A program made the translations under genes and the position numbers. The notes beneath the pieces were generated by a model. It was not told the origin of the DNA. It saw only the letters and a program-made list of their open reading frames with translations, and made no database searches. Shown piece by piece: positions 3,562-9,333 of a DNA stretch of 38,392 nucleotides (position 1 is the stretch's first letter; each line of letters starts with the position of its first letter). Origin of the DNA: an uncultured Thermanaerothrix sp. (lineage in GTDB: Bacteria > Chloroflexota > Anaerolineae > Anaerolineales > Anaerolineaceae). The DNA lies in NCBI RefSeq assembly GCF_938028735.1, contig NZ_CALIMF010000022.1, positions 1 to 38,392 of the forward strand, read 5' to 3'.

Positions 3562-4995
3562 CTACTCGGCACAACATGAAAGCCTGGCTGGATCTTTGAA
3601 ATACGAAATTGCCGCGATCTTCAACGCCTCCGCCATTGTGGGGTAGACGTGGATCATGTCGATAAAGTCCTCCAGTTTGGCGTGAAAGCGTAGCGCCATC
3701 GCTGCTTCGTGGATGACTTCACTCGCGTTGGGCATCACCAAGGAGACGCCCACAACTTCGCGTGTGGTTCGGTTAATGACGATTTTGGCGAGGCCATCGG
3801 TTTGATGGGTCGCTCCCGCACGCGGAACGAGTTCCAGCGGGATGGTGCCGCACCAGCAACGGATGCCTGAACTGACGGCTTCCGCGTCGGTTTGCCCGAC
3901 CATGGCCACCTGTGGATCGGTAAAGATCGTGCGCGGGATGACCCGGTGATCCACTTTCCGATGGGCCTCTGTCAACGCGTTCATCGCCGCGATGACGCCA
4001 TCGTGGGCGCCGACCGGGGTAGCCATCTGGCTGTCGGCATGGTTCCCGATCACGTCACCTGCGGCCCAGAGGTTTGGGACGCTGGTTTGCAGTTCATCGT
4101 TAACCTGCACAAATCCGTGCTCATCCAATTCCACGCCAACCTTTTCCAGGCCGATACCATGGGTGTTTGGCTCTCGGCCCGTAGCGATGAGCAATTTCTG
4201 CGCGCTAAAGGTTTGGGGCTTGCCATTTACGCTCGCCAACACTTCAATTCCGTTGGGGGATGTTTGCAAAATGCGCCTTACCTGCGCGGCAGTGACGATG
4301 TTCACGCCTTCCTTACGCAGGAGAAACGTCAGCATGCTGGAGACCTCTGGCTCATAGCGCGGTAAGATGACCGGACTCCGCTCTAAAATGGTGACGTGCG
4401 TCCCGAAGCGGTGAAACATCTGTCCTAGTTCAAGCGCGATGTAACCCCCACCAAGGATTATGAGCGACTCGGGTAATTCGGTCAATTCTATGCCCTCATT
4501 AACAGTTAACAAATCCGAGGTGAGGTACGGGACGCGGTCAAGCCCTTCAATGGGCGGAATGACAGGGCGCGTCCCCGTTGCGACGAGAATGTGCTCGCCG
4601 CGTAGCGTGATCTCCCCCACGCGGACGGTGTGCGCGTCTAGCAGTTCGGCGCTGCCATCGAACACCTGAATGTTTTTCTCATGGGTCAGGATGGATTGAT
4701 ACTTTTTGCCGCGGTAAACTGCGACAACTTCCTGTTTTTGCGCGATGAGTTCGGCGAAGTCCACCTCCATTTTGACAGGTTTGAGCCCCGGGTACCGCGG
4801 GTGCGCTGCTTCCCAGACAATGCGCGCCGCCTCGATGAGATTCTTGCTCGGCAAACAGCCGCGATTAACGCAGGTTCCGCCCAGGGTCCGCATTTCGGTC
4901 ATGGCGGCGGTCTTCCCTAGTTCCGCAGCGCGAATGGCAGCGGCAAAGGCGGTGGAGCCTGAGCCCAAAATAACCAGATCAAATGAACCGCTCAT
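3562..4995 (-). CDS. merA: Mercuric reductase-like flavoprotein disulfide oxidoreductase (MerA core without HMA domain)
   Basis: This 477-residue class I pyridine nucleotide-disulfide oxidoreductase has the FAD-binding [10 protein letters not shown] near the N-terminus and the redox pair C42/C47 in GGTCVNRGC. It also has a central NAD(P)H domain ([11 protein letters not shown]), GREPN and AAGDV. Two features point to MerA rather than lipoamide dehydrogenase. One is the C-terminal vicinal cysteine pair C474-C475 (LSCCAE), which receives Hg(II). The other is [12 protein letters not shown], where lipoamide dehydrogenases have HPT-x-x-E; the tyrosine is a MerA ligand. The N-terminal NmerA (heavy-metal-associated) domain is absent, as in several deep-branching MerA proteins. 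No merR, merT or merP is adjacent, and no MerR operator was seen. Hg(II) reduction to Hg(0) in the cytosol is the likely reaction, by family knowledge. Confidence 0.85.
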
Positions 4996-5109: not shown

Positions 5110-6924
5110 CTACCCCAGTTTGTTGGCATTCAGGAACGCCTTGACCGTATTAAAGGCATTAAAGAACAACGGTGTCCCGGCAAACGAGAGTGGTGAGACA
5201 GGACCGATGGTCATAAAGGAATATTCCCTGCCAGCGGTGTCGAACGATGAATGGGGATCTCGGAACAATTGATAAAGGTCGAGGGCTTTGCTACGCCCCC
5301 CTACCAGTTCGCTCAACGCTTTGAACTCCGCCCCCATTCCCAGGCCGAAGCCGAAGAAAAAGATGCGCAGTTGTTCTAAGATCTCACGATGCAAACTGGA
5401 GAGGGTCTGGCTGATGAACAACCACCCGACCCCGTATTTGCGCGTGGTGCGTGCCGCATCAATGAGGATGCCCCGTACGGCTTTCTTTTCCTCGTTTTCG
5501 GGCTCCTCACGGGGGGCGAGGCGATGGGCTTCATCTATCAGCACCAGCGTATTGAGGCTGCGGTTCTGTTTGTAGGCGTATTCTGCCGCGGTGCGAATGC
5601 CTTCCAGCAAGCGTTTAATCACCAGCGCTTGAATCATCTCATTCCAGAACAACGGGGTACTTTGAGGTTGGGATTGATCCCCACCAAACAGAGGGAGCGT
5701 ATTCAAACTGCCAGGAGTTTGAGTCGCTTGTTCCACCGACAGGTCTATGACAACGAGAGGCCGCTGATCTTGGTCAGGGGCAAACAGACGAGCAAGTAGG
5801 TGCTCTACTTTTTGCGCTCCTGGCCGATCCTCGCGAAACAGTTGTGTAACGGGAAGCCAAACTGTTTGATATAAGTCGTTCGGATTGGTGTCAGCCATTT
5901 GCTGACGTACTCGTTCCCTGGCCTCTTTCGAACCGTAGAATCGCACCAAGATACGCTCTTCCTGCAAGTGCTCCCAGACCTTTCTGAAGCTCTCCTTCTT
6001 ATGCAAACTGGCGAGGCGTATGTCGTCTTTTTGCAGTTGTTCGCTTATGACCTCTGCGGCCTGACGCTGGTTTTCCACTGCTTTAACGCCAAGTCTTTGA
6101 AAGAAGCCGGATTCCAAGAGAATCTGTTCAAACAGATCCCATCGGTCGAGCACCAGATCTTTCACCCCATGCACTTGAACGGGTTTTCCGAGCCGGTTCA
6201 AGATTTCCTTCATCGGCAATTGGAATTCCCCCGGCACAGCCTCGCCCCTGGCTTCTTGGGCAAATTCACCTTGAGGATCAATGACCAGAAGCGCCATCTT
6301 GGGATAACGAGCATAGGCCAACAGGATCATCTTAGCCAGCACCGATTTCCCAGATCCCGTCTTTCCAAAGATGCCCAGGTGGTAGGCCTCCCCAGCGCCC
6401 TGCGGACCGGTATCGAAATGCTTGAACCAAAGCGGCAGAAGAGGCTTTGAACCGTAGACATGCCCCAGGTAGAACAGTTGGTCGCGGTAGGGCGAGAGCA
6501 ATTCAGAGAGGGTCGCATCATTGACCAAATGAATGGGCGTGCCCGTGGCCGGGACGGTGCCCAAGATGCTGGGACGATAGCCGTCGGGCCCCGCCGAGAA
6601 CACAGCGCTGATGGTCATCTCTCCCATGTGGGTATCCTGGCGCTCGCTAACGGTATCTACCCGCCCACGCTGACGGATCAGGCTACGCATGGTAGGGTCT
6701 TCATGCCAGACGTTGCGCAGTTTCACCTCGGTAATCTGTCCCAGCGCGTAATGGGAAAGGCCATCCTGATGATAGCGGAATAGGGCCAGTTCCCCGACCA
6801 GTTTCTTATTAACGGCTCCAGCCAGAATATCTAGCGCTATTTCACTGGTAGAAGATGGTGAGCCAACGACACCAATTCGTTCTGCCTCATCTACAAGGTG
6901 GTCCAAACTTAAGTGTTCCTGCAT
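5110..6924 (-). CDS. HerA/FtsK-like hexameric DNA-translocase ATPase of a DruA-NurA-HerA operon
   Basis: I place the start at ATG 6924 (604 residues), not at the upstream in-frame ATG 7005. AGGAGGGT at 6938-6931 gives perfect Shine-Dalgarno spacing and overlaps the stop of the NurA-like gene, leaving only four bases between the genes. The Walker A motif GKTGSGKS is at about residues 187-194 and is followed by LLVIDPQGEFA, the HerA-style strand. A Walker B of the type LVLIDEAHRLAP with the catalytic Glu lies near the C-terminal third, followed by an ISQTLSSL sensor. The N-terminal ~170 residues look beta-rich, like the HAS-barrel of HerA. Charged alpha-helical sequence sits between Walker A and B (around residues 235-345). 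HerA translocates DNA and stimulates a partner NurA nuclease; here that partner is encoded just upstream. Confidence 0.85.
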   Translation of the reverse strand: MQEHLSLDHLVDEAERIGVVGSPSSTSEIALDILAGAVNKKLVGELALFRYHQDGLSHYALGQITEVKLRNVWHEDPTMRSLIRQRGRVDTVSERQDTHMGEMTISAVFSAGPDGYRPSILGTVPATGTPIHLVNDATLSELLSPYRDQLFYLGHVYGSKPLLPLWFKHFDTGPQGAGEAYHLGIFGKTGSGKSVLAKMILLAYARYPKMALLVIDPQGEFAQEARGEAVPGEFQLPMKEILNRLGKPVQVHGVKDLVLDRWDLFEQILLESGFFQRLGVKAVENQRQAAEVISEQLQKDDIRLASLHKKESFRKVWEHLQEERILVRFYGSKEARERVRQQMADTNPNDLYQTVWLPVTQLFREDRPGAQKVEHLLARLFAPDQDQRPLVVIDLSVEQATQTPGSLNTLPLFGGDQSQPQSTPLFWNEMIQALVIKRLLEGIRTAAEYAYKQNRSLNTLVLIDEAHRLAPREEPENEEKKAVRGILIDAARTTRKYGVGWLFISQTLSSLHREILEQLRIFFFGFGLGMGAEFKALSELVGGRSKALDLYQLFRDPHSSFDTAGREYSFMTIGPVSPLSFAGTPLFFNAFNTVKAFLNANKLG

Positions 6925-6928
6925 AAAT

Positions 6929-8080
6929 TCACCCTCCTGATTCGGTACGGTAGCCATGCAAACCCAGAAAAACCTCGCCCACATTTCCTCGATAGGTCTC
7001 GGCAATGTATTGGCTCGTTACCTGTCGAAAGGTGGGGATGGCCCTGGAAAGGTGCTTTACCATTCGGTCTGCCATATAAAGGGGATAGGGTTCCATGACC
7101 GCCGGTGCGCCGCACTGGTAACGGATTCCATGAAGTGCGGTGGCCAGGCGGGCCTGATTTTCGGCCACTGCGCGGCTCATCTCTACCCGGAGGGCTGGCA
7201 GCCAGGGATAAGGCCGGTAGTAAACAACCTGGATCTCGCCCAATAATGAGATGATCTTCTCGGCAGTCTGATGGGTGGTTTCCCTAATAGCCGGTTCCAG
7301 TGGGTTCAGATTCAAGTGCCAGGGCTCGGTTGGCGGTTGGAGTGACCGGGGGCACGTGTATTCACCCGGTTCCAACAGAAAGCTCAAGAGGCCGCGGTCA
7401 TCGTGGTTGTCGGGCCAACCCATCTTTTGGCCAATTTCCCGTCTCGCCGTGTACTTGGGTATTGCCAGCCAACAGCGGTCACTTCGGGCCGAGGCGAGGA
7501 TTTCCTGGTACACTTCCAGGAATGAAACCATTTGACCCAGAAATTGTTGTGTAGTCATCAGATGCGCGGTGTCCCTGCTTTTATTGAGGGCCTGGTTGAA
7601 GTAGATAAGGGGGGTCGTGAGAGAGCCATCCAGGAAAACCACCTCATGCGGAGCGCGTGAGGCCAGCATCAACTCCATACCGATCATCAGGGCGCGGAGG
7701 ATTGTGCTAGTTTCGGCCTCGTGAACCTCTGTCTCCACCCAGACAAGATGACGGGGCTCTGGCCAATGGCGTGTTTCCGAAGGCGGGGTTAGCCCCTCCA
7801 CCGCCACAGCAGCCGCAGCGACCAAATCGCTCGCCAACAGTCGCTCTACGGCGTAGGCGCCATCCACCCCGCAGGTGGTTGGGATGGGCATGTAGGGAAG
7901 TTCGGCATCACGGCGCAGTAACCCCGCCTGTTCAAGGCCAGTGCGCCATTCTTGGCGACGAGCACGGATCTGCTCAAAATCGGCTAGCAACTTCTGGCTA
8001 AGATCCTCGGTGCGTCTGAGGATCTCATCAACCAGTGCGGCGGGGAGTTCACCAAAGGGACGTTCGGCGGATTCCATCAT
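6929..8080 (-). CDS. NurA-like nuclease domain protein
   Basis: The protein has 383 residues (or 382 from the second ATG). D73 in CGVDGAYA and D151 in VFLDGSL are spaced like the two catalytic aspartates of NurA, an RNase H-fold 5'-3' exonuclease. An acidic stretch between them (around E116-E123) could supply the third metal ligand. Sequence similarity to classical NurA is modest, so I rely on these motifs plus the HerA gene directly downstream. The start overlaps the DruA-like stop as ATGA (8080-8077), which implies translational coupling. The stop overlaps the ribosome-binding site of herA. The protein is presumably loaded by HerA to degrade DNA. The gene is distinct from the second NurA gene at 16952. 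Confidence 0.72.
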   Translation of the reverse strand: MMESAERPFGELPAALVDEILRRTEDLSQKLLADFEQIRARRQEWRTGLEQAGLLRRDAELPYMPIPTTCGVDGAYAVERLLASDLVAAAAVAVEGLTPPSETRHWPEPRHLVWVETEVHEAETSTILRALMIGMELMLASRAPHEVVFLDGSLTTPLIYFNQALNKSRDTAHLMTTQQFLGQMVSFLEVYQEILASARSDRCWLAIPKYTARREIGQKMGWPDNHDDRGLLSFLLEPGEYTCPRSLQPPTEPWHLNLNPLEPAIRETTHQTAEKIISLLGEIQVVYYRPYPWLPALRVEMSRAVAENQARLATALHGIRYQCGAPAVMEPYPLYMADRMVKHLSRAIPTFRQVTSQYIAETYRGNVGEVFLGLHGYRTESGG

Positions 8081-9333
8081 TTCGCAACCTTGTCCTGTTC
8101 AAGTAGCAGCAGGCTCTTGATTCCCTCTTTACGCCACTCTCGCCATCCATCCACGCGTTCTGCGCGCGGCAGCAACCAGCGTTCGCGCCACCAGGCCACT
8201 AATTCCGAGAATGGGAGGTTGCGGTAGACCGGTTCGGTTTCACGCCCTTCCATGTAGGCTTCCAGGTTCTCCACCAAGCGGAAGAGAAACACTTCCCGCT
8301 TCACGCCGTGACGCAGCCAATCGGATGGGAGGCCTAAGTATTCCAATGCGCGCACCATGGTTTGCCATTTCCGGCGTGGGCCGGTGCCGAAGCCACCACG
8401 TGTTGAAATTCCCTGGCTTTCCAGGAATTCGCGGAACAACGGATAGAATTCCATCAGGTGAAACGTGCCATAACCTTCTGTGTAACCAAGGGACTCGGCG
8501 ATGGCCATTCCGTGATAGCGCAGGCGGTTATACAGGCTGCTCCGCCCAAAAGCGCTGGTGGTGGTCAGGGCAACGAGATGAGGCGGCAAGATGCGCCCTT
8601 CCATCTCGGTTGCACGTCCGGCGTACTTGCGCCAATACGCTTGGCGAATCTCATTAGAGGCAGCTACCAGCCCAATAAGCTTTCCGCCTAATAAGCGATC
8701 GTAGGGCGGTACAGCCCCCAAGGTTTGAATGTCCATGGTCTGATTGACCAGTTCGGTCTTCTTGCCAGGGGGATAGCGAAACAGGCGATCCCGCGCCGGA
8801 AAACTGAGAGGAGGGGACTGCAGGGCCAGCAGGCCGATGAGTTTTCCATTGGAGCGGTCAACCACCAGAAACCTCAAGCGACGGCCGTAACCCTTGGAGA
8901 ATGGGATGGACCAGAGCAGTCGGGCCACGCGAAAGAGATTGTGGTGTTGCTCGGTGGTCACTTCGACCAGGGCAGGGTCAATCCGCTCCGGCGTGATCTC
9001 GTCACCATCAGCGAAGAAGGGGAGATATTGAGGGAGATATCGCCGCAGCCAATCCTGACGCGCCATAATTTCGAGTTGCGAAGAGGGCCTGTGGATCTGC
9101 CGCAGACGCTCCTTATCCACCCAAGGAGACCATAACGTACCCTCCTCGGTGATTGCGAACCCGAGCTCTTTGAGTCGCTCAAGCACAAGTTGCCTTAATC
9201 CTTTTGCGTCCACGCTTTCAGCCTTTGTCGGGTTCCGTCTGCGAAGGGATGGAGTCTCGATAGGTCGTCGTTTTACCGTGTCCTCACTCCGACTAAACAT
9301 CCTGTTGGGTACAATGATGCCAGATTGGCACAC
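8077..9333 (-). CDS. DUF4338-type protein related to Druantia DruA
   Basis: This 418-residue protein is the first gene of the operon. Conserved-looking blocks include LRFLVVDRSNGKLIGLLAL, VPPYDRLLGGKLIGL and LVALTTTSAFGRSSLYNRL, then YTEGYGTFHL. These match my memory of the DUF4338 family, whose best-known member is DruA of the Druantia anti-phage system. The biochemical role of DUF4338 is not established. No Druantia helicase (DruE) is in the window; the partners here are NurA and HerA. The first ~55 residues are basic and low-complexity, so the true start could be ATG 9300 rather than 9333. A possible -10 (TAAAAT, 9369-9364 on the minus strand) lies just upstream. Composition is lower in G+C than the flanking 10-30 kb region, compatible with acquisition by transfer. 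Confidence 0.75.
   Translation of the reverse strand: MCQSGIIVPNRMFSRSEDTVKRRPIETPSLRRRNPTKAESVDAKGLRQLVLERLKELGFAITEEGTLWSPWVDKERLRQIHRPSSQLEIMARQDWLRRYLPQYLPFFADGDEITPERIDPALVEVTTEQHHNLFRVARLLWSIPFSKGYGRRLRFLVVDRSNGKLIGLLALQSPPLSFPARDRLFRYPPGKKTELVNQTMDIQTLGAVPPYDRLLGGKLIGLVAASNEIRQAYWRKYAGRATEMEGRILPPHLVALTTTSAFGRSSLYNRLRYHGMAIAESLGYTEGYGTFHLMEFYPLFREFLESQGISTRGGFGTGPRRKWQTMVRALEYLGLPSDWLRHGVKREVFLFRLVENLEAYMEGRETEPVYRNLPFSELVAWWRERWLLPRAERVDGWREWRKEGIKSLLLLEQDKVAK

Follow-up and report, generated by a model that had tools for sequence, protein, structure and literature searches.

A recurrent DruA-NurA-HerA gene cassette, a putative anti-invader system with an exchangeable Mom-related first component

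Among the closest described relatives of the locus studied here are the HerA-NurA pairs of archaea and Deinococcus, in which a HerA ATPase is encoded next to a nuclease with the NurA fold and DG motifs. The HerA of T. kodakarensis drives double-stranded DNA into a pair of NurA subunits, by which both strands are cut, and the authors of this work propose an antiviral use (PMC12977600; this and the other cited articles are drawn on in excerpts). HerA motors also act together with a partner effector in phage defense by SIR2-HerA and DUF4297-HerA (PMC11291478, PMC12977600). The DruA family (DUF4338, PF14236) belongs to type I Druantia alongside DruB-E, and a review lists Druantia among the systems that use DNA modification (PMC12904381). 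In certain DndFGH systems, a DUF4338 domain fused to DndF acts together with a HerA/FtsK motor, and DndH contains the nuclease (PMC10853773). Here, we describe a three-gene cassette encoding a free DruA, a NurA-family nuclease, and a HerA-family ATPase in a stretch of 38,392 nucleotides from an uncultured Thermanaerothrix sp. of the Chloroflexota (NZ_CALIMF010000022.1, positions 1 to 38,392), the whole of which we call the window.

The trio shares adjacent NurA and HerA genes with the archaeal and Deinococcus pairs, but its operon is headed by a DruA gene, its spread is patchy, and neither Mre11 nor Rad50 was detected among the seven window neighbors scanned. Unlike in type I Druantia, the partners of DruA are NurA and HerA, and neither a DruE-type helicase nor DruB-D were found by Pfam and PADLOC among the window neighbors scanned. 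Of DndFGH, the sole trace found is a weak DndH match via the HerA domain (14.5 bits), and the cassette differs from SIR2-HerA and DUF4297-HerA in that the motor is paired with NurA plus a third component. A literature search covering PubMed Central (PMC), i.e., excluding subscription papers and preprints elsewhere, found no report of DruA, NurA, and HerA together, in agreement with an earlier model-made annotation of the window (hereafter the sequence-only reading) that had known of no such system. The same search retrieved no article with both Druantia and the Mom protein of phage Mu, and a term search of the main text of two Druantia preprints (PMC12458937, PMC13192584) did not find DruA, DUF4338, or Mom as whole words. 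The Phold paper mentions DruA-like folds in Synechococcus phages (PMC12774648).

The cassette is a recurrent, three-part unit with an exchangeable, Mom-related first component that is swapped at a hotspot. We tentatively propose, at somewhat less than an even chance, that it is a mobile anti-invader system in which DruA marks DNA and HerA-NurA degrades DNA that lacks the mark. DruA would chemically mark the resident (self) DNA, and the HerA ring would pass any double-stranded DNA lacking the mark on to NurA, which would degrade it; since the gene of the writer lies in the same operon, self-marking combined with degradation of unmarked DNA is the simplest scheme. Four premises underlie this proposal, namely a single job for the long and short types of DruA, DNA marking as that job, protection by the mark, and invading DNA as the target. 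DNA marking is suggested by the relation of short DruAs to Mom together with a partner swap between long and short types, and it sharpens the role in the sequence-only reading, where DruA was thought to feed or license the HerA-NurA machine. A narrower form, which we consider possible though doubtful, is a methyltransferase-free class of restriction-modification in which DruA, as a cellular branch of the Mom superfamily, would write an acyl-type mark on bases of self DNA and HerA-NurA, as a motor-driven nuclease, would read its absence. If this were true, the same writer would explain DruA in type I Druantia and in DndF. If the mark is real, cells would use a non-methyl DNA modification for self-recognition, and HerA-NurA would gain the defense role that was proposed, though not demonstrated, in the work on the archaeal structure. 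A defense role of the cassette as such is likely.

The strongest argument that long and short DruAs may have a common function is the apparent partner swap. Between one locus with a long DruA (L012) and two with a short one (L050, L052), NurA is 82-84% and HerA 88% identical, and DruA is 17-18% identical. DruA would thus have been exchanged while nuclease and motor stayed nearly unchanged, which suggests a shared function. Across 22 trios, the identities of NurA and HerA are closely correlated (r 0.94), and those of DruA correlate less with these two (0.75 and 0.66, with L050 and L052 left out). In one family of Chloroflexota, all five genomes with a DruA (G055, G064, G120, G332, and G367) carry a variant 0.2-2.3 kb from one ettA gene that is 82-95% identical to the L050 copy at these loci (L050, L052, L063, L099, and L104) and was matched by NCBIfam EttA in the two cases tested. 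Two of these variants are short-DruA cassettes in the order DruA-NurA-HerA, one is a broken long-DruA cassette in the same order, one has the order NurA-HerA-DruA, and the fifth combines DruA with a HerA match and a protein bearing DG motifs, on opposite strands. Among these five genomes, the ettA site is an insertion hotspot at which versions of one functional set are exchanged. Such turnover is the behavior of a defense hotspot and supports the defense reading.

How widely the trio occurs was examined by scanning for NurA relatives in one genome per species, which gave 14 loci from Chloroflexi/Anaerolineae, Roseiflexus, Gloeomargarita, a Synechococcales cyanobacterium, Pyrinomonas, Armatimonadetes, and Zixibacteriota; as the majority come from metagenome bins, individual taxon labels may be wrong. 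DruA and HerA flank NurA in the order of the window in 11 of the 14, the contig ends within the cassette in two (L006, L013), and one has a shortened NurA without DruA beside it (L009). The named Pyrinomonas strain carries a second complete trio elsewhere in its genome (L124). Among 400 Chloroflexota genomes, 34 have NurA matches (21 strong, with E 1e-37 or better, and 13 weak) and 30 have a DruA of any type. DruA adjoins NurA in 17 of the 21 genomes with strong matches, with 15 long DruAs (including G335, where the contig bearing NurA starts inside DruA) and two short ones (G055, G120), and the co-occurrence has a hypergeometric probability of 1.8e-18 when relatedness is ignored. Six of 244 cyanobacterial genomes encode DruA; all five long ones sit with HerA plus NurA or a NurA-type protein, four of them in permuted order, and the single short one (L158) lacks HerA or NurA-type neighbors. 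DruA matches were found in 21 of 247 acidobacterial genomes, mostly of the short type and often in multiple copies (neighborhoods were examined in regions from nine of the 21). The trio thus recurs patchily, in several phyla and in two gene orders, and the universal conservation that the sequence-only reading had named as a counterargument does not hold.

Mobility and decay are also apparent. L005, which carries the trio, is probably a circle of 8,340 bp: its contig of 8,417 nt has an identical 77 nt at both ends, and HerA spans the junction. The contig also encodes a NucS-type protein (E 1.1e-9) and an IS4-type transposase (93 bits, under the cut-off of 115). NurA or HerA are interrupted in L059, L063, and L065. 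These observations bear on the idea of a horizontally moving DNA-repair cassette in which HerA-NurA is an end-resection machine and DruA an accessory, a reading that we regard as rather improbable. The link of Deinococcus HerA-NurA to recombination (PMC12977600) would fit it, but only one of ten sampled genomes of the window's own family is positive, copies decay, variants are exchanged at one site, and four genomes of one genus (g129) have another, weaker-matching NurA that in two of them exists alongside the trio.

The relation of DruA to Mom was explored at the level of profiles and folds. Mom modifies phage DNA; sources name it the adenine methylcarbamoylation protein. As the sequence-only reading had anticipated, the window DruA is a DUF4338 protein (PF14236 with E 1.7e-75 and 254 bits vs. 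a cut-off of 27), it matches the PADLOC DruA with E 4.7e-98, and its predicted fold is that of a GNAT, which it shares with Mom. Short DruAs (24 of 30 matches, chosen by length) align to Mom (110 sequences of 200-270 amino acids) in hhalign with E 2.9e-4, and none of 100 column-permuted controls scored as high. At the places of the Mom active-site residues H58, Y59, S124, and Y159, these 24 proteins have H in 24, Y in 22, S in 22 (T in the other two), and Y in 23, respectively, and at the place of D149 they have D in 14, E in seven, Q in two, and V in one. Profiles of long and short DruAs match each other with E 1.1e-11. A direct relation of the long DruA to Mom, itself a phage enzyme, was considered and rejected on a negative profile comparison, and we keep it only as a chain through the short DruAs. 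The Mom link of short DruAs appears to be new: in the literature excerpts consulted, no chemistry beyond the GNAT label is assigned to DruA, and the link yields a hypothesis that can be tested directly for a protein shared by Druantia, DndF fusions, and the present cassette.

Several results weigh against the proposal. The window DruA compares with the Mom profile at E 0.6, with a score of 13.4 that lies below the permuted-control mean of 16.5, and has no match to Pfam Mom (PF25680) at E up to 0.1. The Mom residues H58-Y59, S124, and D149 correspond in it to W101-S102, G177, and T219 (with the equivalence of T219 taken from ungapped counting), so that Y228 at the place of Y159 is the sole agreement and four of the five active-site places differ. 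Its best fold matches are a tie between Mom and ordinary GNATs, which means that it might acylate proteins instead. Among the short DruAs linked to cassettes, those of L050, L052, and L160 have Q at the place of D149 (L106 has D), which weakens the Mom-branch, restriction-modification form of the proposal; those of L050 and L052 have no Pfam Mom match at E up to 0.01, and the remaining Pfam Mom matches are all under the curated cut-off. The partnership is not strict either, since four genomes of one genus (G126, G174, G182, and G190) keep NurA-HerA without DruA, with a broken copy in G190, and long DruAs in L100, L101, and L161 have no NurA or HerA match nearby. Finally, PADLOC revealed no clear excess of defense genes near the trio among the families listed (119 neighbor vs. 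117 control open reading frames [ORFs]).

The main rival explanation is in our view unlikely, though it deserves serious weight: HerA-NurA would be a killing effector like DUF4297-HerA, and DruA a GNAT-like sensor or activator. By binding or acylating a phage product or either of its partners NurA and HerA, DruA would switch on indiscriminate (abortive) DNA degradation. DUF4297-HerA indeed degrades host and phage DNA abortively (PMC11291478), GNAT domains in DndF have been suggested to act on proteins (PMC10853773), and most active-site residues of Mom are missing from the long DruA. However, short DruAs in the same gene position retain most of them, and the long DruA has invariant positions of its own (W101, P104, R111, G177, K178, Y228, and R230 in 26 of 26 sequences), which suggests catalysis over mere binding. 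A different use of the putative mark, with DruA modifying incoming or damaged DNA so that it loads or triggers HerA-NurA, seems a long shot to us. It would suit both the action of Mom on phage DNA and a DruA that is probably made first from a single transcript, but we found no evidence of a trigger, and modification of the host is the usual logic according to a review (PMC12904381).

The PADLOC comparison behind the statement on defense genes used 119 of 155 ORFs from 14 of 18 loci and, as controls, 117 of 152 ORFs from 14 of 18 regions, without ORFs of more than 1,000 amino acids and with a threshold of E at most 1e-15; ORFs had been picked greedily by length in scripts, so some neighbors are not genes. 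Among the best 25 of 47 families for neighbors are a cyclase and a 2TM effector of CBASS, an IIG-type gene (L064), a GajA/OLD-type gene (L059), mad3, mad8, mad2, MzaA, and SspH, and among the best 25 of 42 for controls are type II/III methyltransferases, IetA, and a subtilase. No Dru family is among those best 25 neighbor families, and no Dru protein except DruA was seen among the window neighbors scanned. Both points speak against a degenerate or new type of Druantia, which we consider very improbable even though DruA gives type I Druantia its name and a large DEAD-box helicase lies beside DruA in L100 and near DruA in three plasmid records. The main neighbor shared between loci is a 143-aa protein in L005 and L124, besides genes of close relatives and ABC or signaling proteins that we call generic from a reading of examples.

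Within the window, the genes and signals of the trio are arranged as listed below, all on the minus strand.

Table 1. Coordinates of the DruA-NurA-HerA cassette and its joining signals in the window
Feature	Position	Strand	Details
DruA-family gene (DUF4338/PF14236, long type)	8077..9213	-	378 aa from GTG 9213; predicted GNAT fold; candidate DNA-marking enzyme
NurA-family nuclease gene	6929..8080	-	383 aa; D73 (CGVDG), D151 (FLDGSL), and D338 (YPLYMAD) invariant among close relatives
HerA-family ATPase gene	5110..6924	-	604 aa from ATG 6924; PF01935 E 4.2e-14, alignment, motifs
druA stop/nurA start overlap, ATGA	8077..8080	-	sequence
herA ribosome-binding site AGGAGG, inside final nurA codons	6933..6938	-	sequence

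The ORFs and the two junctions described by the sequence-only reading are present, with the AGGAGG extending up to the NurA stop (6931-6929) and the HerA ATG at 6924-6922, and from this layout the three proteins are probably translated from a common transcript in which DruA comes first. For the DruA gene, the stop end given before holds, while the likelier start is GTG 9213 rather than the alternative GTG 9333 because relatives align from residue 41 of the longer version; the Gloeomargarita locus (L007) has no in-frame DruA start further upstream. The HerA call stands as well, with 53.6 bits to DUF87 (cut-off 23.2), a Walker A motif (GKTGSGKS), and a Walker B motif (LVLIDEAH). The proposed NurA assignment did not come from the window protein's own score, which is under the Pfam cut-off (PF09376, 12.6 vs. 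21 bits, E 0.095), but is secured via its relatives and its fold: PF09376 is reported for 13 of 13 aligned relatives at E up to 1 (best 2.2e-8), and the predicted fold is that of NurA. The three invariant aspartates, which hold in both alignments of close relatives, presumably have a metal role. Strict text patterns for the DG motifs fail at the first motif in six of 22 trios, the more distant ones. An alignment of NurA matched no chain among PDB sequences, and NCBIfam has no family for DruA or NurA. The G+C content across 5-10 kb (0.54-0.58) is indeed lower than across 10-22 kb (0.60-0.67), as had been noted, but other stretches are equally low or lower (0.54-0.57 at 2-5 kb, 0.55 at 23-25 kb, and 0.45-0.46 at 32-34 kb), so that it is weak evidence for a foreign origin of the trio.

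Permuted and diverged relatives extend this picture. The order NurA-HerA-DruA is found in L104, L105, and L154-L157, while Gloeomargarita has the order of the window. L154 and L155 have a clear NurA match, and L156 and L157 have a protein of 409/410 amino acids in the place of NurA, a type whose L105 version is just under the Pfam NurA cut-off (E 0.001); four proteins of this type share the motifs DGSYNS, RDGTLR-type, and GYPYPL. Outside the 17 Chloroflexota genomes with adjoining DruA and strong NurA, 13 further genomes have a DruA. Two of them (G064, G372) have the order NurA-HerA-DruA, and in another two (G332, G300) a HerA match and a protein with DG motifs lie near DruA. In G150, a short DruA is accompanied by a 353-aa gene plus a weak HerA match, a large helicase lies beside DruA in G116 and, by arrangement, in G265, and DruA is fused within a protein of ~1,250 amino acids in G354 and G295. 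DruA is at the contig end in G086, and the short DruAs of G391, G379, and G015 are on small contigs that have neither NurA nor HerA matches. In L107 and L108, a DruA domain in a ~1,250-aa protein is followed by a ~490-aa gene and a ~1,500-aa gene, resembling DndFGH; the protein beside the fused DruA of L108 has 1,596 amino acids and matches HerA weakly, and L107 has no HerA match.

Long acidobacterial DruAs include that of Pyrinomonas with its trio, that of L162 with a 442-aa DG-motif gene and a HerA match (E 1.4e-52), and that of L161 with neither partner. A short DruA in L160 (Acidobacteriota) and in L106 (Chloroflexota) is accompanied by a gene of 352/353 amino acids and by a weak match to HerA (E 0.0004 to 0.001). 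These partners may be of the NurA and HerA type, judging from a weak profile match and from a single DG motif spotted by eye; the two partner genes had no Pfam match in L106 and no NCBIfam match in L160. We also considered DruA as a transposon gene and rejected this for the long type, since the window genome and six genomes bearing relatives each have a single PF14236 match. Several copies of short DUF4338 genes occur in some acidobacteria (seven matches in G669), and short DUF4338 may also be a mobile-element cargo gene. On a Thiodictyon plasmid (L112), such short genes lie among transposases.

Searches of viral contigs and of phages found no relative of NurA and none of the one short DruA used as query in each. 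The long DruA of the window has one weak DUF4338 match in phages (23.9% to Pelagibacter phage Mosig). In this phage, the gene (L189, 3911-5209) lies near two annotated 2OG-Fe(II) oxygenases and one phytanoyl-CoA dioxygenase. In plasmids, NurA had three distant matches (23.7-28.5%), all with HerA matches next to them; the three stretches examined contain no DruA match, although the Natribaculum plasmid has one ~75 kb from its NurA-HerA. On a Rhizobium leguminosarum plasmid (L066, 7851-14081), a row formed by a 387-aa gene, NurA, HerA, and a gene whose product has a GHKL-type ATPase domain (HATPase_c_3) is possibly another NurA-HerA system. The pair on a Euzebya plasmid (L067, 8914-12029) lies amid an Mrr-type restriction endonuclease and DNA methyltransferases, and a haloarchaeal plasmid (L190, 4639-12645) has a 706-aa gene annotated as DruA, two further genes, and an FtsK-annotated gene in a row, which is one more pairing of DruA with a motor. 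In the genus that lacks DruA, NurA-HerA follows a gene of UDP-glycosyltransferase type (L060-L062 and L065; the family was checked in one of the four). Upstream of the Gloeomargarita trio is a CRISPR-associated Cas_APE2256 family gene (L007, 5334-6491; E 6.7e-32), and the gene adjoining the trio in the window (3562-4995, minus strand) encodes a MerA-type flavoprotein reductase (NCBIfam MerA with 505 bits, cut-off 454).

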